From: Tamaricihabitans halophyticus
GTDB lineage: Bacteria > Actinomycetota > Actinomycetes > Mycobacteriales > Pseudonocardiaceae
Length of the DNA stretch: 64,000 bases
NCBI RefSeq assembly: GCF_004340875.1
Contig: NZ_SLXQ01000008.1
Span: 124,001 to 188,000, forward strand
Direction: 5' to 3'
In this document: positions 3,032 to 10,888 of the stretch, in pieces
Layout of the letters: the number at the start of each line of letters is the position of its first letter
Numbering within the stretch: the first letter of the stretch is position 1
Position numbers and translations under genes: made by a program
Notes under the pieces: model-generated
Seen by the model: only the letters and a program-made list of their open reading frames with translations
What the model was told of the DNA's origin: nothing
The model's database searches: none

Positions 3032-4324
3032 ATGCTCGAAGATGGCGGATCGGGTGCCGAGGAGGCGAGAGCAACGACTACCGAGCAGCGGGTGGATGCC
3101 CACCCAGAGGTCACCGCGCTGGGCGCGGGCGCGCAGCGGAGCTGGTTGACCACGACGGCGATCGCCGACGTGGTCGCGGCGGAACAACGTCCGTTCCCTG
3201 CGGAGGAGTACGAACGGCGACTCAGCGCGGTCCGCGCCAGGATGGCCGAGGCCGGCCTGGCCGCGATGATCGTGTTCCGGCCGTCGAGCGTGGAGTATCT
3301 CTGCGGGTACCACACGGCGGAGACCGCCCCGCAACCCTTGCTGGTCACCGAAACGGACACCTACCTCTACGTGCCGGACCTGGAACTCGGCCGGTCATTG
3401 GCCAGCTCCCGGGTGGGCAACCTGCTCTACTGCGGTTACGCGGACGCGCTGCGCAGCCTCGACGTGTTCTTCGACCACGCGATCGGCGAGCTGCCCAAGG
3501 CCGCCAGGGTGGGCATCGAACTGGACCACACCTCCACGCCGCCGCGCGCGCTCGAACTGTTGCGGGAGAAGGGAATCGAGGTCGTCGCGGGCGAGCATCT
3601 GGTCGAACGGGTTCGCCTGGTGCTCTCCGCAGCCGAGATCGACTGCATGGAACGAGCCGCGGAACACACCGAAGCCGGTGTACGGGCGGGCTTCGCCGCG
3701 GCGAGCGAGCCGGGCGCCACCGATTCCAGCGTTGCCGCGGCGATCGCGGCCGCGCTGTACCGGGAGGCGAACTCGCCGTCGGTGTGGGGCCCGGTGGTGG
3801 CCACCGGTCAACGTGGCGGGATTCCGCATTCCAGCTGGCAGCATGGCCCGCTAGGGCAGGGGCTGACCTTCGTGGAGTTCGCCGGTACGCACCACCGTTA
3901 TCACGCGCCGGTGATGCGTACGTTCACCCGCGCCGCGCTGGACGCGCCGGATCGGCGGCTGGTTGAGATGTCGAAGGCCGCGCTGACCGGGGTGCTGGAG
4001 ACCGCGAAAGCGGGTATCTCGGCCGCCGAGGTCGCCCGCGCCGGTCGGGCCGCGATCGGCGTGATCCCCGATGACGTGGTGTTTCACCAGTTGTTCGGCT
4101 ATCCGGTCGGCTTGGCGCACAAACCACACTGGATGGACGGCGCGCCGTTCTACCTGACGGTGGACAACGAGCAGCCACTCGAAGCGGGCATGGCGTTTCA
4201 CGTGCCAGCCTCGTTTCGCATCTTCGGGCGGTCCGTGGTGGGACTCAGTCACACCTTCCTGGTCACCGAATCGGGCACCCGGGTACTGACCAAGGGTGAC
4301 GCGGAGCTGGTCGAGCTGCCCTGA
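3032..4324 (+). CDS. M24-fold hydrolase, creatinase / ectoine-hydrolase (DoeA/EutD)-like
   Basis: About 430 aa with a creatinase N-terminal domain (residues about 55-185, including SSVEYLCGY) and a C-terminal pita-bread M24 domain (about 190-420). The region that holds two metal-binding aspartates in methionine aminopeptidases reads VEFAGTHHRYHAPVMRTF: no aspartates. That pattern is known in ectoine hydrolases and in other non-metal creatinase-type members, so a C-N hydrolase of a small cyclic or guanidino compound is more likely than a true peptidase. The start is uncertain: ATG 3032 lacks a clear ribosome-binding site, and the TTG that opens LTTTAIADVV (near 3146) sits closer to the usual N terminus. 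Neighbours are an M20 amidohydrolase and the hydantoinase pair. Confidence 0.85.
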   Translation: MLEDGGSGAEEARATTTEQRVDAHPEVTALGAGAQRSWLTTTAIADVVAAEQRPFPAEEYERRLSAVRARMAEAGLAAMIVFRPSSVEYLCGYHTAETAPQPLLVTETDTYLYVPDLELGRSLASSRVGNLLYCGYADALRSLDVFFDHAIGELPKAARVGIELDHTSTPPRALELLREKGIEVVAGEHLVERVRLVLSAAEIDCMERAAEHTEAGVRAGFAAASEPGATDSSVAAAIAAALYREANSPSVWGPVVATGQRGGIPHSSWQHGPLGQGLTFVEFAGTHHRYHAPVMRTFTRAALDAPDRRLVEMSKAALTGVLETAKAGISAAEVARAGRAAIGVIPDDVVFHQLFGYPVGLAHKPHWMDGAPFYLTVDNEQPLEAGMAFHVPASFRIFGRSVVGLSHTFLVTESGTRVLTKGDAELVELP

Positions 4325-4344: not shown

Positions 4345-4944
4345 GTGGTGCGCCGCCGTTCGGCCCGTGCGATGCTGGCAACGGTGCGCGCCCGGCCGAC
4401 TACCGGATGGCGTACCGGGTCAGCCGAGGCGACGATGTGGTCGCCGGTGTCCAAGAAGGGGTTTGGTGCGGTCATGGCGGCGGTCTGGCGGCTAGTCGTG
4501 ATGCAGCCCGACGGCGATGATCCGCTCGCGGTCGTCGCCGTCTGGCCTGGTTCGGCACGGCTGCGCGCGCCATTGCTGGAACATGCCGAGTTCACCCCGG
4601 CGAGTGCGGGCCCGTGGCCGATGGCGCGCAACTGTGTGGTGTACGTGGCACAGCATGCGATCACCGGGTTGCGCAACGGGCGCACCTGCGTGTACGCGAC
4701 CCCGCCGGCCACCGCACCAGGACGCTGGTGGGATGTGGCCGGCCGGCGGGGTCAGGTGCTGGTCACGCTGGGCGCGGAGCCGGCAGCTGGTCTGGTCACG
4801 GCGACAACCAGCAACACCGAACCGATCACCGACCTCGCCGAGCTCGGCACGGATCTGCGAGTCGGGCTCGCCAGGTTGGCGCCGGATCGCGGACCGCTGA
4901 TCACACCTCGTCCCATCGTGTACAACTCGATGTCGCCGAGCTAG
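4345..4944 (+). CDS. Hypothetical protein, no recognised family
   Basis: Up to 199 aa. I recognise no domain. From about 4474 on (MAAVWRLVVMQPDGD...) codon third positions are strongly G/C, as in real genes here, and the residues look protein-like (CVVYVAQHA, CVYATPP). The first 40 codons are less convincing, so the ATG at 4432 or 4474 may be the true start. There is no signal peptide or membrane segment. It lies 20 bp after the M24 gene in the same direction, and its TAG stop overlaps the stop of hyuB on the other strand. A sequence search on the 4474-4944 part would show whether this is conserved. Confidence 0.5.
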   Translation: MVRRRSARAMLATVRARPTTGWRTGSAEATMWSPVSKKGFGAVMAAVWRLVVMQPDGDDPLAVVAVWPGSARLRAPLLEHAEFTPASAGPWPMARNCVVYVAQHAITGLRNGRTCVYATPPATAPGRWWDVAGRRGQVLVTLGAEPAAGLVTATTSNTEPITDLAELGTDLRVGLARLAPDRGPLITPRPIVYNSMSPS

Positions 4945-6911
4945 GTCCAGTGCTGGGCCGAGCGGCGCCAGACCAGTTCCCGGAACTGTCGGGTGGTTTC
5001 CGGGTAGAGCTCACCGGTACCCCAGTCGACGATCACCGCGTACTTCCGGATGAGGTCGAACATGTCCAGTTCACCCGCGCGGAAGCGCTCCGCGACCTCG
5101 TCCGGATCGGCGGACAACCAGCCCTTGCGCTCAGCGCGAATCCGATCCCTGGCCACCGTCGTGGCTGAGGTGTCGAGCTCGTAGGCGTCCACTTCGGGAT
5201 CGATCGCGGTGATCACCACGCCGTAATCGCGTTCCGCGCCCCTGATCGAGACATAGCCGTCGATCACGTCCTCGAGTACCTGCTCGGGGCTGCGCTCCAG
5301 CGGGTCCCCATAACCACCGCCGCCCGCTGATGGCCGGACGAAACTGTCCCCGGACTGCACCGGAACCCCCGCGAAGACCGAACCGAGGAACCGCTCGTCC
5401 GGAGTGTCCTTGTTCAACCAGACACCGTGCGGAATGGACGGTAGCCCACCCTCGATGCCCCAGGTGATCGAGCGCGCGCGGTCACAGCAATAGGACATCA
5501 CGGTTTTCGCGCAGTCGGTGAGCGTGCCACCCTTGTGTACTCCGCAGCCGCCCCGGTTACGGCCGGGCCCGCCGGAATCGGTGATCAGCTGATGGGTGCT
5601 GGTAAGTACCGGGGTGAGCCGTTCCTGGCCTTCCAACGGCTGCACCGCAAGGCCCACGCCGAATACCGGGGACGTGGCGTTCGAACCGTCCTTGCTGCCG
5701 CGGCCACCCCAGCCGCCGGCCATCCAGTCGTACCACATGAAATACGGATGTTGCGGCGCGCGGGCGTCATGCCCACCAATCAGTAGGTATTCCAGATTGA
5801 ACGAACAGGCGATGGCCCGTTCGGGCATGATCTCCGACCACAGTTCAAAGATCGAGTTCATGATCTTCTCGTACGGTCCGGAGCAGAACCCGGTTACCGC
5901 ATGCGGCCAGCCGGCGTTCACCACGGTGCCTTCCGGACCGAGGTCGGTGTTGATCGCGTTGTACAGACCGGAGTTGAGTGGTACGTCCGGGAAGAACGTC
6001 TTGGTGCCAGCCACGATCCCGGAAAAGGCGGTGCCGTAGCCCGCGTTCAGGAAACTGGCGACCGCGGGCGCGCAGCCACTGAGGTCGTAGCTGGCCTGAT
6101 CGCCCGAGATGGTCAGCCGGACCTGTACCGGTACCAGGCCTTCGCCATGTGCCGGGTCGAAATCGATGTAGTCCCTGGTTGTCCAGGTGCCGTCCGGTAG
6201 ACCAGCCACCCTGCTGCGCACGATGCGTTCCACATAGTCCTGTACGCCCTGCATCGCCTCCACCACGGAGGCCTTGCCGTACCTGCCAACCAGCCGGTGG
6301 ATCTCCCGCTCGCAGACACTGGTGGCCTCGGCCTGGGCGTGCAGATCCCCCAAGCTGATATCCGGCGACCTGGTGTTGGCGACGAGTAGCTTGGCCACAT
6401 CCCGCAGGAACTCGCCGCCGCGCCAGACCCGCAGCGGGGTGATCCGCAGGCCCTCGCTGAAATGCGCCGTGGCGTTCACATCGAACGATCCCGGTACGTT
6501 CCCGCCGATATCGGCCCAGTGGCCCTTGTTCTGCGCGAAGGCGATGAGCTCGCCATCGGCGAAGATCGGTTTGATGAAACTGACGTCGTTGAGGTGGGTG
6601 CCGCCGAGGTAGGGGCAGTTGATCGCGAATACGTCACCGGGATTGATATCCGAACCGAACTCCTCGAGCACCGCCTTACACTGGAAATGCAGCGTTCCCA
6701 CGTGCACCGCGATGTCCTGGCTGCCCTGCATCACCGTGTTGCCGTTGGCGTCGCAGAGTGCCGAGGAGAAATCGCGCGCGTAGATCACGAACGAGTAGCA
6801 GGTTCGCAGGATCTGCTCGGACATCAGATCCACCGAGGTGGCGAAGGCGTTCTTGAGTACCTCGAAGGTCACCGGGTCCAGCGAGGTTCGGGATTCGGTG
6901 CTCTGGTTCAT
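4941..6911 (-). CDS. hyuB: Hydantoinase B / oxoprolinase family subunit (HyuB)
   Basis: 656-aa B subunit of an ATP-dependent hydantoinase/5-oxoprolinase/acetone-carboxylase-type enzyme; it works as a complex with HyuA. It begins LDPVTFEVLKNAF, the standard family N terminus, and carries NCPYLGGTHLNDVSFIKP and SAGGGGYGDPLERSPE near the C terminus. The frame is open upstream to 7376, but ATG 6911 with GGAGGAG six bases before it matches the family start. The ATGA at 6911-6908 overlaps the stop of a small repeat-bearing ORF that separates it from hyuA. Substrate (hydantoin, N-methylhydantoin, 5-oxoproline or another lactam) is not readable; the creatinase-like neighbour makes a lactam/imide reasonable. 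Confidence 0.92.
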   Translation of the reverse strand: MNQSTESRTSLDPVTFEVLKNAFATSVDLMSEQILRTCYSFVIYARDFSSALCDANGNTVMQGSQDIAVHVGTLHFQCKAVLEEFGSDINPGDVFAINCPYLGGTHLNDVSFIKPIFADGELIAFAQNKGHWADIGGNVPGSFDVNATAHFSEGLRITPLRVWRGGEFLRDVAKLLVANTRSPDISLGDLHAQAEATSVCEREIHRLVGRYGKASVVEAMQGVQDYVERIVRSRVAGLPDGTWTTRDYIDFDPAHGEGLVPVQVRLTISGDQASYDLSGCAPAVASFLNAGYGTAFSGIVAGTKTFFPDVPLNSGLYNAINTDLGPEGTVVNAGWPHAVTGFCSGPYEKIMNSIFELWSEIMPERAIACSFNLEYLLIGGHDARAPQHPYFMWYDWMAGGWGGRGSKDGSNATSPVFGVGLAVQPLEGQERLTPVLTSTHQLITDSGGPGRNRGGCGVHKGGTLTDCAKTVMSYCCDRARSITWGIEGGLPSIPHGVWLNKDTPDERFLGSVFAGVPVQSGDSFVRPSAGGGGYGDPLERSPEQVLEDVIDGYVSIRGAERDYGVVITAIDPEVDAYELDTSATTVARDRIRAERKGWLSADPDEVAERFRAGELDMFDLIRKYAVIVDWGTGELYPETTRQFRELVWRRSAQHWT

Positions 6912-7070
6912 CGGGACTCCTCCTGTGTTTTGCCGGCACCCGCACCCGGTCGGATCAATGAGCTGGTTCGGGATTGTGTGCTCATTGGTCCTCCTCCTGT
7001 GTTGTGCGGGGCACCCGCACCCGGTCGGGCCAATGAGCTGGTTCGGGATTGTGTGCTCATTGGTCCTCCT
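6886..7070 (-). repeat. Tandem repeat (80 bp, 75 bp, partial 30 bp) carrying RBS plus start codon
   Basis: Unit copies are 6886-6965, 6966-7040 and the partial 7041-7070. Each begins (plus strand) GTTCGGGATT and holds the complement of an AGGAGGA ribosome-binding site with an ATG. The 75-bp unit is a multiple of three, so the small ORF stays open through it. The copy next to hyuB has diverged most. Confidence 0.9.
6908..7060 (-). CDS. 50-aa ORF of two 25-aa repeats, coupled to both hyuA and hyuB
   Basis: The ORF starts at ATG 7060, overlapping the hyuA stop (ATGA), and ends in TGA at 6908, overlapping the hyuB start (ATGA). It encodes two copies of a 25-residue unit (MSTQSRTSSL-x-RPGAGA...), and the second copy has its own in-frame ATG at 6985 behind GGAGGAGGACCA. 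The first codons resemble those of hyuB (MNQSTESRTSL). So the hyuB initiation region seems to have been duplicated twice in tandem, leaving three strong ribosome-binding sites and three starts in a row. Whether the peptide is made, or the sequence only tunes hyuB translation, is unknown. Confidence 0.55.
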   Translation of the reverse strand: MSTQSRTSSLARPGAGAPHNTGGGPMSTQSRTSSLIRPGAGAGKTQEESR

Positions 7071-9102
7071 CGAAGACGTGAATGCGGATGTTCTGCCATT
7101 CGTCGATGACCGCGGGGGTGTTGGGTGGGATGACCGTCGTGGAGTCGAGCTGTTCCAGGATGGCCGGGCCGAGAATGCGGGTGCCGGCCGCCAGCGTGGC
7201 GCGGTCGTATACCGGGGTGTCCACCCTGGCGCCGAGCTCGTCGAAGTAGGTACGCCGGTGCCCGGTTGGCTCTGGCGGGTCCTGTTCGCGTAGTTCCTGC
7301 CGGGGAAACTGGGGCTTTGGCGTCGCACCGGTTGCCCGCAGGGCGAGCTGGTACAGCTCAACCGGGGTGTCATCACGGCGGAACGAGTACTCGCGTTCGT
7401 GTTCCTCGTGGAAGTGCTCGACCGCGGCGCTCAACGCGTCCGGTCCCGGTGAGATCGGCACGCTCAGCGAGCGCCACTGTCCGGCGTAGCGCATGCTGAT
7501 CGAACGTTCCAGCACCATATCGGCATCCGCCACACCTTCGCGGCGCAACCTGTGCGTGGCCTCGGTTTCCAGCTTGCCGAACTCGGCGGTCAACCGGTCG
7601 GTGTCCGCGACCGACGCCTCGGTCTGGTACATGGCGGTCAGGTCGTGCCGGATATCCACCAGCAGGCAGCCCTGCGCGGAGGTGATACCCGGATGCGGCG
7701 GGACCACGACGACGGGGATCGACAGCTCCTTCGCCAACGCCGCACCGTGCAGGCCGCCGGCGCCGCCGAAGACGACGAGGGCGAAATCGCGCGGATCGTA
7801 TCCCCGGCGGATCGAGATGAGCCGGACCGCGTCGGCCATGTTCGCGTTCGCGACCTGCAGGATATCGCTGGCCGCCTCGTCCACGTCCAGCCCGAGTGGG
7901 GTGCCTACGCGATCGCTGATGGCGTGCTCGGCCGCCGTGCGATCCAGGGTCATCGCACCGCCGACGAGCTCGGTGCCCAACCGGTCGAGTACCAGGCTCG
8001 CATCGGTGTTCGTGGGTTCCTTACCGCCCAGCCGGTAGCAGGCCGGCCCAGGGTCGGCTCCGGCGGATGCTGGGCCATTGCGCAGCGAGCCGGCCTCGTC
8101 CAGCCAGGCCAGTGAACCACCGCCGGCGCCGATGGTGAGCACCTCGATGCTCGGAAAGCAGATCGGGAAGCCGTACTCCACGTGCCATTCCTTGGTCACC
8201 CGGATCTCGTTGTTGTGCACCAGCGAGATATCCGTGCTCGTGCCACCCATGTCCAGGCCGATCGCGTTGCCGTAGCCGCAGCGCTGGGCGAGATCGCGGA
8301 CGGCGATGGCGCCGGCGGCGATCCCCGAGGCGGCCAGCCGCACGGGGTAGCGCTCGGCCATCCGGGGTGTCATGGATCCGCCGCCGGAATGCAGCAACAG
8401 CAAGTCACCGTCGTAGCCGCCATCGGAAAGCTCGTTTTCCAGCCGGTTCACGTAATCGCTAACCAGCGGTCCGAGCACGGTGTTGGCGACGGTGGTGGAG
8501 AACCGGTCGTACTCGAAGATCTCCGGCAGCACCTCGCTCGAGGTCGAGATGCGCACACCGGGTAGCTCTTCGGTGAGGATCTCCTGCATCCGGCGCTCGT
8601 GCGCGTCGTTCGCGTAGGAGTTGATGAACCCGATGGCGACCGTGCGCACACCCTTGCGGCGGAGCACCCCAGCCAGTCGTCGTGCTTCGTCCTCGTCCAG
8701 CGGGGTGACCACGTCACCGGTGTAGTTGACGCGCTCGGTCACCTCGTACCGATCCCGCCGGCGGATGTACGGACGGCCAACGTCCTGATAGGCGTCCCAG
8801 AGGTCGTCCTTGGTGCCGTTGCGGATCTCCAGCACGTCTCGGAAGCCTCGGGTGGTGACCATCGCCGCGGGTGGGAACCGGCGTGTGATCAGCGCGTTGG
8901 TGGCCACCGTTGTGCCGTGGGAGAACAGAGCGACATCAGTGAGCCGGATTCCCGCGGCGCGCACCCCGTCGAGCACGGCCCGCATTGGATCCTCGGGAGT
9001 CGAGGCGACCTTGGCCACGCTGGTGGTCGCGGTCTCGGTATTGAACACGCATACATCGGTAAACGTTCCGCCAACGTCCACCGCTACCCGGAGTTCTCGC
9101 AC
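7057..9102 (-). CDS. hyuA: Hydantoinase A / oxoprolinase family subunit (HyuA)
   Basis: 681-aa ATP-binding partner of HyuB. N terminus RELRVAVDVGGTFTDVCVF holds the actin/ASKHA-type phosphate-binding loop; further hallmarks are FSHGTTVATNALI near residue 75, LDMGGTSTDISLV near 280 and IGAGGGSLAWLD near 310. The frame is open to 9165, but GTG 9102 directly precedes the conserved start and has AGAGGTG six bases upstream, so it is preferred. It is first gene of a minus-strand operon (hyuA, small ORF, hyuB) and divergent from the PucR regulator, which probably controls it. It could act on a hydantoin, N-methylhydantoin or 5-oxoproline; the family alone does not decide. Confidence 0.92.
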   Translation of the reverse strand: MRELRVAVDVGGTFTDVCVFNTETATTSVAKVASTPEDPMRAVLDGVRAAGIRLTDVALFSHGTTVATNALITRRFPPAAMVTTRGFRDVLEIRNGTKDDLWDAYQDVGRPYIRRRDRYEVTERVNYTGDVVTPLDEDEARRLAGVLRRKGVRTVAIGFINSYANDAHERRMQEILTEELPGVRISTSSEVLPEIFEYDRFSTTVANTVLGPLVSDYVNRLENELSDGGYDGDLLLLHSGGGSMTPRMAERYPVRLAASGIAAGAIAVRDLAQRCGYGNAIGLDMGGTSTDISLVHNNEIRVTKEWHVEYGFPICFPSIEVLTIGAGGGSLAWLDEAGSLRNGPASAGADPGPACYRLGGKEPTNTDASLVLDRLGTELVGGAMTLDRTAAEHAISDRVGTPLGLDVDEAASDILQVANANMADAVRLISIRRGYDPRDFALVVFGGAGGLHGAALAKELSIPVVVVPPHPGITSAQGCLLVDIRHDLTAMYQTEASVADTDRLTAEFGKLETEATHRLRREGVADADMVLERSISMRYAGQWRSLSVPISPGPDALSAAVEHFHEEHEREYSFRRDDTPVELYQLALRATGATPKPQFPRQELREQDPPEPTGHRRTYFDELGARVDTPVYDRATLAAGTRILGPAILEQLDSTTVIPPNTPAVIDEWQNIRIHVFEEDQ

Positions 9103-9226
9103 GTCAGCACCTCTTGGTCGGGTTCGATTTCCTGACACTATGAGGCGCCCGTCACATGGCGACAATTGTGTGAAGTGAGAGCATGCGAGCCACGGCTTGT
9201 TCGATCAGACAAGAATCCGAGGTTTC
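9103..9226. promoter_or_regulatory. Divergent hyuA / PucR intergenic region
   Basis: This 124-bp spacer must hold both promoters. Two symmetric elements are visible: ACAATTGT (9162-9169) inside a wider TCACA...TGTGA frame, and CTTGT-N8-ACAAG (9196-9213), which lies just before the PucR start. Either could be the regulator's operator; there is no independent support. Confidence 0.4.
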
Positions 9227-10888
9227 ATGGGCACCGACCACGGGCTGCGCCTGGTGGATCTACTCGCCGCCAGGGAACTCGGCCTACGCATGCTCACCGA
9301 CGCCGACCCGGATACGCCGATCGCTGGCGCGCACGCGATCGAGATCGAGCGGCCGCAGCGCTGGCTCGAGCCCGGCTGGCTGATGTTGACCACCGGATCG
9401 CGATTCAGCGGGCCGGGTTCGGCCGATGAGTCGTTGCGCGCCCTGGTGCGGCAACTGCACGAGGCGGGTATCGCCGGGCTCGCGTTCGGCGTGGGTGTCT
9501 GCCTGCCCGCCGTACCGCGTGCATTGGTGGATGAGGCTCGCCGTCGTGGCTTCCCGGTGCTGTCCGTGCCGCTCGAAGTGCCCTTCCTGCGGATCGAGAG
9601 CTTCGTGCACGAGGCCACCCGCACCTCGGACGTGCGAGCGCTCAAACGCACCGTCAGCTTCCAGGACTATCTGCTTGAGTCGCTCGCCGCCGAACACGCG
9701 GAAGGCGCGCTGGTCGGCAGGCTGGCCGAACTGCTACGCGGCACCGTCGTGCTGTACGACGACGCCGGCACCGTGTTGGCTTCCTCCGGTGTTGGTCCAC
9801 TGCGGCTGATCCGCGACGAGATCATCAGCCACCCGGCCACCGGCCGACGGTTCACCGTCGGCAGGTGGCATGTGCGAACAGATCCGGTGCGGACCGGATA
9901 TCTGCGGCATTGGCTCGCGATCGCCGCGCGCCGCAAGGAGATCTCGGACGAGCTGGCCGATCCAGCGCTGGAGGCCGCCCGCCGACTGGTCGCGATGATC
10001 GTGCGATCCAGGGAAGCGATCAGGGCCGAGGACCGGCTCCGGCGTACCGAACTGGTTCGCATGCTGATCGGCGCGGCGAGCGCGGAGGCCAACTACCTGT
10101 GGGACCGGCTCGCCGCGCACCGATTCCGGCCACACGGGGAAATCCGGCTACTGCTGCTCGCCACGCCCGATATGGCTGAACAGTCAGATCCGCGGCAGGC
10201 TGAACCGCCAGCCACACCCGAGAAACCGGCAAGCGGGGCGCCGCTGGAGCCAGCGGCCCAGTTGGCCAAGGCGGCCGCCGAACTCGACCTACCTCTGGTG
10301 GTCGCGGTGCACGAGGGACGGCTCGTGGCCGTGGTCGAAGCCGGCTGGACACCGCTTTCCCGCTGGCTCGAACGTCTGCCACCCGGAATGTGTTGCGGGG
10401 CAAGTGAGGCCTATACCGATCTGAGCCAGGGCGCCGCGCGGTTCCGGGAGGCCACGCTTGCCTGCACGGCGGCGCTACGCGGTGGCGAGCCCGTGCGACG
10501 CTTCGAGGACGTCGGCCTGGTCGACTGGCTGGTCGCCGGCCGGACCACCAGCCAATCCCGCGACAAGGCCGATCAGGTGCTCGAACCGGTGCTGGACAAC
10601 CCGATGCTCGCCGAGGCGCTGGCCGAGTATTTCCGGAGTGCCTGCGATATCCGGCGGACCGCGCGCCGGCTGGCCCTGCATCCGAACTCGGTGCGCTACC
10701 GGCTGCGCCGAGTCGGCGAGCTGCTCGGCCGGGATCTGCGCGAGCCGGCCACCGTCGCGGAGCTGTACCTTGCCCTGCGGTTGAGTTCGGCCCGCGATCC
10801 CGGCTCGGCTGGCGAGCCTCAGCGGTCTCCGGGGCGGCCATCCGGCCCGGTACCACCAGGCCCGCCGCGGCCCGGTCCAGACCGCTGA
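9227..10888 (+). CDS. PucR-family transcriptional regulator
   Basis: 553 aa. Residues about 5-120 form the PucR N-terminal (purine-catabolism-type) sensory domain (VDLLAARELGLRMLTDADPD; EPGWLMLTTGSRF); a central linker domain follows; the C terminus (about 455-520) is the PucR/CdaR-type helix-turn-helix (DIRRTARRLALHPNSVRYRL). Such proteins usually activate nearby catabolic genes in response to a nitrogen-rich metabolite. ATG 9227 has GAGG just upstream; a TTG at 9197 in the same frame is less likely. The last about 35 residues are Pro/Gly/Arg-rich and overlap the convergent gene by 70 bp. By position it most likely controls hyuA-hyuB and perhaps the nearby amidohydrolases (inference). Confidence 0.9.
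   Translation: MGTDHGLRLVDLLAARELGLRMLTDADPDTPIAGAHAIEIERPQRWLEPGWLMLTTGSRFSGPGSADESLRALVRQLHEAGIAGLAFGVGVCLPAVPRALVDEARRRGFPVLSVPLEVPFLRIESFVHEATRTSDVRALKRTVSFQDYLLESLAAEHAEGALVGRLAELLRGTVVLYDDAGTVLASSGVGPLRLIRDEIISHPATGRRFTVGRWHVRTDPVRTGYLRHWLAIAARRKEISDELADPALEAARRLVAMIVRSREAIRAEDRLRRTELVRMLIGAASAEANYLWDRLAAHRFRPHGEIRLLLLATPDMAEQSDPRQAEPPATPEKPASGAPLEPAAQLAKAAAELDLPLVVAVHEGRLVAVVEAGWTPLSRWLERLPPGMCCGASEAYTDLSQGAARFREATLACTAALRGGEPVRRFEDVGLVDWLVAGRTTSQSRDKADQVLEPVLDNPMLAEALAEYFRSACDIRRTARRLALHPNSVRYRLRRVGELLGRDLREPATVAELYLALRLSSARDPGSAGEPQRSPGRPSGPVPPGPPRPGPDR

Follow-up and report, generated by a model that had tools for sequence, protein, structure and literature searches.

A probable two-unit array of a MIRU-like mobile repeat between hyuA and hyuB in Tamaricihabitans halophyticus

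The hyuA-hyuB junction and its repeat units

The analysed window is a 64,000-nucleotide stretch of the Tamaricihabitans halophyticus genome (contig NZ_SLXQ01000008.1), in which hyuA and hyuB are separated by a tandem repeat (Table 1). The pair is flanked by a gene for a PucR-type regulator (9197-10888) and an M24 peptidase/creatinase-like gene (3032-4324), neighbours that suggest a purine- or hydantoin-type catabolic cluster. The array ranks first in the window in Tandem Repeats Finder (period 75, 93% match, score 273), and a 62-nt repeat at the junction has 97% identity. The ribosome-binding site (RBS), AGGAGGA or AGGAGGAG, occurs three times, each time followed by ATG, with the starts at 7060, 6985 and 6911. 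The stop codon of hyuA (TGA, 7059-7057) overlaps the ATG of a small ORF (7060-7058), and the stop codon of the small ORF (TGA, 6910-6908) overlaps the ATG of hyuB (6911-6909), all on the minus strand. The initial annotation, which had described tandem RBS and start copies at this place and a chain of ATGA couplings from hyuA through a 50-residue ORF to hyuB, is borne out in both respects. The peptide encoded by the small ORF consists of two 25-residue units (75 + 74 nt) and reads MSTQSRTSSLARPGAGAPHNTGGGP MSTQSRTSSLIRPGAGAGKTQEESR. It had also been said to resemble the first residues of HyuB; the resemblance is real and most likely arises because codons 1-10 of hyuB lie in the partial third copy (GAGCACCGAATCCCGAACC vs. 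GAGCACACAATCCCGAACC in the full units).

From 5′ to 3′, each unit of the element is arranged as T, a loop, T′ (the reverse complement of T), NCCG, the core, RRCAC and T again. T is GGAGG N2-6 RTGA plus a few bases, and the core hairpin, TGCGGG-TGY-CCCGCA, is constant. In unit 2 of the window, the core is decayed, with GTGCCGGCA in place of GTGCCCCGCA. The T copies in the window are also unequal (5′ GGACCAATGA, 3′ GTCCCGATGA), and the duplication here is therefore old or rearranged. The copy number is read from a draft contig. However, the two units are not identical, with differences at several positions, and each matches the family model by itself, which makes a simple duplication in the assembly unlikely.

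Table 1. Positions of the genes, repeat units and sub-features at the junction, in window coordinates
Feature	Position	Strand	Support or remark
hyuA (hydantoinase/oxoprolinase subunit A)	7057..9165	-	Pfam Hydantoinase_A, Hydant_A_N, Hydant_A_C
hyuB (hydantoinase/oxoprolinase subunit B)	4941..6911	-	Pfam Hydantoinase_B, 496 bits
Repeat unit 1, 75 nt: T (RBS + start), loop, T′ arm, core	6997..7071	-	
Unit 1, covariance model match	6999-7065	-	62.9 bits
5′ arm T of unit 1, GGACCAATGAGC; includes the hyuA stop and ATG	7055..7066	-	inverted repeat
3′ arm T′ of unit 1, GCTCATTGGCCC, complementary to T	7027..7038	-	inverted repeat; arm tests
Unit 1, conserved core CCGACCGGGTGCGGGTGCCCCGCAC	7004..7028	-	exact match to family consensus
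Unit 1, core hairpin GTGCGGG-TGC-CCCGCAC	7020-7004	-	
Repeat unit 2, 74 nt	6923..6996	-	repeat and sequence comparison
Unit 2, covariance model match	6925-6990	-	49.6 bits
Partial third copy: hyuB RBS, start and first codons; resembles the element loop	6885..6922	-	
50-aa ORF across both units, ATGA overlap at each end	6908..7060	-	no Pfam match

Distribution of the element and its empty and filled sites

A blastn comparison of the junction with 60 relatives gave matches in 21 genomes, mostly centred on ~7028-6993 and some of them in tandem. With up to two mismatches, the core ACCGGGTGCGGGTGYCCCGCA is present in 259 of 390 genomes and 41 of 46 genera of the family; at this tolerance a lone match in a genome may be due to chance, but high counts are not. 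The richest genomes contain 73, 49 and 46 such matches and the single genome of the same genus in the set contains 12, vs. 0-2 per genome for the reversed pattern, which served as the control. Outside the family, the core with one mismatch was found in 7 of ~320 genomes of the order. The window's own genome has a single core copy (up to three mismatches), at the hyuA-hyuB locus. A covariance model of the repeat (R1), built from 31 units, matched both window units and no further copy in this genome, and it matched 0 of 131 non-family genomes of the order. The closest relatives of hyuB are those of Prauserella and Sciscionella. The repeat was found in 0 of 80 hyuB orthologs, in which hyuA and hyuB abut or overlap directly. 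By this distribution, the unit belongs to a dispersed element, an origin by local duplication of the hyuB start is not supported, and the copy in the window's genome is a lone and partly decayed one.

Empty and filled sites were compared at the junction of two genes that we take, from our reading of the proteins, to be zwf and opcA. Counted by hand from the junction sequences of 59 genomes, 27 sites are empty, 21 contain the core and 11 contain remnants, other spacers or unresolved sequence. At the empty sites, which include that of the window's own genome, the zwf stop directly overlaps the opcA start (e.g. CACTGGAGGCGACCGTGATCATCGAC). At the 21 filled sites, GTGA and TCATCGA are separated by 1-4 units, and in the typical case GGAGGCGNCCGTGA is found on both sides of the insert. 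The upstream T, in which the conserved end of zwf is encoded, is native; the downstream T is a duplicate by which the second gene regains its start. When the two flanks of 31 loci are compared, the five bases ahead of RTGA match at 4.35 of the 5 positions, vs. 2.06 with loci swapped. Comparison of these junctions shows that insertion of the element takes place after RTGA and produces the RBS and the start anew, and that one site can hold 0 to 4 tandem units. Empty and filled species occur even inside one genus: the site is empty in genome G407 and holds two units in G002, with OpcA proteins that are 92% identical, and in another genus it holds three units in G033, none in G292 and G296 and one in the others. 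The suggestion that the repeat number could differ between relatives is supported at an orthologous junction of the same element. Because the window's own genome has one locus only, we infer the mobility of the element, by way of an enzyme, from the relatives. At three zwf-opcA loci (L281, L290 and L293 in G001, G363 and G010), the start region is duplicated and the core is absent, and these loci are apparently deletion remnants of old insertions.

The core was also seen in other arrangements. Among loci L185-L224 of G170, it occurs in a 69-nt repeat type whose stem is fixed (GATGGGGGCATGCG...CGCATGCCCCCATC) and which has CTGAG on its flanks, and mid-way in a palindromic repeat type (GTCGTGAGTGAAAAGTGTT...AACACTTTTCACTCACGAC). 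The core may be the part that the mover recognises. At L106, L113 and L317, the short hairpin of the core is swapped for a longer one (e.g. GGGTTGGGCCCCCGCTG...CAGCAGGGGAGGGTGTCCCGCA). Copies at carA-carB-like junctions (L093, L131 and L137) lie within the end of the upstream gene and apparently lengthen its C-terminus with element-encoded residues. Those at L094 and L103 lie in polyketide-synthase-like genes just after the GTNAHVI motif, where the element apparently can also enter coding sequence in frame.

The target-matching arm and translation through the units

The start-to-start distances range from 69 to 89 nt, with 74 nt the commonest, and most units are 71-77 nt long. The loop is nearly constant among many copies within one genome (ACACTGGCGGAGCCCC in G228 and G170). 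In a test anchored on the start, T′ pairs with the T flanks of its own site at 5.89 of 8 positions vs. 4.00 for swapped sites, and none of 20,000 permutations reached the own-site value (maximum 4.64). This test replaced an unanchored one (22.4 vs. 18.8, above all 10,000 permutations), which was noisy because start sites resemble each other. The covariation between the arms is 0.298 vs. 0.149 after shuffling (0 of 500 shuffles reach it) and at most 0.126 with the partner slid, with pairs counted in one majority register only, as MAFFT misregisters some arms including that of the window. Some complementarity of T′ even reaches into the second codon of the downstream gene (p < 0.001). In one genus, insertions at a shared opcA site have matched pairs, among them CGG/CCG, CCG/CGG and GGG/CCC. 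These comparisons show that the inverted repeat T/T′ follows the local site, a rule that may be new.

Departures from Watson-Crick pairing in the arms are G-T in 59 cases vs. A-C in 12, or 32 vs. 12 when the start-codon T column is left out (p = 0.004), in counts where, as in the other arm tests, related copies are non-independent. The excess of G-T suggests, with moderate strength, selection on the transcribed strand as RNA. It is conceivable, and we put it forward tentatively, that base pairing is the means by which the repeat recognises its target or copies it, with an arm that is the reverse complement of the entered RBS and start. The arm would then either be acquired on insertion, by snap-back copying of the target strand, or guide the insertion, in a guide-like choice of target. 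The constant loops and changing arms within one genome favour an arm that is copied from the target or chosen by pairing; the G-T excess favours an arm adjusted later by compensating changes. To our knowledge, transposition by target copying or target pairing is undescribed for small bacterial repeats. If this is how the element moves, the arm would be kept afterwards as an mRNA hairpin.

In 33 of 46 loci, the longest frame from upstream terminates precisely in the TGA of the upstream RTGA. The unit length modulo 3 is 2 in 55 units, 0 in 23 and 1 in 7. Small ORFs end in a 4-nt overlap in 49 of 85 cases, and most units of length 0 modulo 3 stay in frame. As a pattern across loci, this shows that the small ORFs usually end in the next RTGA overlap (2 modulo 3) or stay in frame. 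All three frames are used to read the core (25/16/5 loci); it is therefore the relay and not the peptide that is conserved, and the peptide is probably a by-product. RNA folding of the window predicts two hairpins in unit 1 (z -3.84), and unit 2 alone folds no better than its shuffles (z -0.06). The unpaired probability is predicted to be 0 for the upstream ATGs of the window and ~0.5 for the ATG of hyuB. Over 41 loci, the masking of the upstream starts is a trend only (p = 0.07), and a general masking is not claimed.

Origin of the array and comparison with known repeats

The spacer between hyuA and hyuB is very probably a two-unit array of a short, mobile, MIRU-like repeat of an actinobacterial family. 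As the comparison of junctions shows, the element enters directly after RTGA at a site where the upstream stop overlaps the downstream start. Such an insertion spares the upstream gene, and the second T copy at the downstream end leaves both genes with their signals. Ribosomes finishing hyuA may be handed on through the relay to hyuB, in which case the insertion would be nearly neutral, and the T/T′ hairpin is predicted to hold the leftover start codons closed.

The three RBS-ATG copies, with the partial third one running into hyuB, could also result from a local tandem duplication of the hyuB start that multiplies the sites of ribosome entry and adjusts the HyuA:HyuB ratio, as the initial annotation had proposed. 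However, loop, arm and core are found again at unrelated genes in most of the family's genera and the 80 orthologs are without the repeat, which places the unit in a dispersed element family. Nor do the extra ATGs look like multiplied initiation sites, as both are predicted to be closed in stems of 8-9 bp. Such an origin is very unlikely. We consider it highly improbable that the translated peptide has a function of its own: the unit lengths do favour an open, coupled frame, but the core is read in three frames, the arm-encoded residues vary by site, and the peptide has no Pfam match.

The arm calls for a comparison with a regulatory leader of the attenuator or riboswitch type, in which T′ pairs with either the upstream or the downstream start copy and switches the second gene. 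The complementarity of T′ to both flanking T copies would suit such a switch, as would the covariation of the arms and the predominance of G-T over A-C departures. Against this, the targets (opcA, carB and others) look unrelated, the presence of the element is patchy within genera, and a search of Rfam 15 gave no family above the gathering score, the only match being a chance one of 13.7 bits (E 0.88). A leader of this kind is therefore unlikely. A draft contig with a short tandem repeat might also raise the suspicion of an assembly artefact or a chance repeat, which is hardly credible for units that differ and score independently with the family model, and tandem units are also found in the single-contig genomes G364 and G373.

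As an array of a mobile MIRU-like repeat, the junction would represent a second family of start-codon-inserting repeats, one that is common in Pseudonocardiaceae-type actinomycetes. MIRUs underlie standard tuberculosis typing, and as far as we know their movement and their effect on translation are unresolved. The orthologous empty and filled sites, together with an arm that mirrors the target, would provide a natural data set for the choice of start sites and their preservation. Annotators should be aware that the repeats create short ORFs and change protein ends. A search of the open-access literature found no paper on such repeats in Pseudonocardiaceae.

REP elements are moved by RAYT (Y1) transposases. 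The present element resembles them in its constant small hairpin, a shared recognition-like feature, and several repeat types of G170 share the core; however, the present element inserts at start codons and duplicates the RBS, which is not known as a trait of REP elements. MITEs and enterobacterial small mobile sequences of the RU type are described as short and dispersed and can add residues to adjacent proteins (PMC2759123), and the present element has the same properties. In contrast to MITEs, it is without fixed terminal inverted repeats, and its sole long inverted repeat, T/T′, varies with the target.

The closest likeness in these comparisons is to the MIRUs, which, as a 2025 review (PMC12548453, citing Supply et al. 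1997) presents them, appear mobile and insert at start codons. The same review describes an internal ORF coupled at -4 nt, by which insertion would hardly affect the gene. The senX3-regX3 spacer of M. tuberculosis contains three MIRUs, of 77 bp or 77 + 53 bp depending on the strain (PMC4213456). The present element is similar in unit length (77/53 bp in senX3-regX3 vs. mostly 71-77 here), in its insertion at start codons of operon junctions with an ORF that has a 4-nt overlap (the 33 of 46 loci and 49 of 85 ORFs given above), in the variable tandem copy number (0-4 here at zwf-opcA) and in its presumed mobility. A published MIRU20 typing primer gave one chance match, without a repeat, in 396 genomes of presumed Mycobacterium. 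The differences, in a comparison that takes MIRUs by description only, are the other host family and the restriction of model R1, which matched none of the 131 non-family genomes. For the present element, two features are defined: an arm that is complementary to its particular target, and the constant TGCGGG-TGY-CCCGCA core. Judged by host range and sequence model, the element is thus MIRU-like but not a MIRU, and constitutes a separate family.
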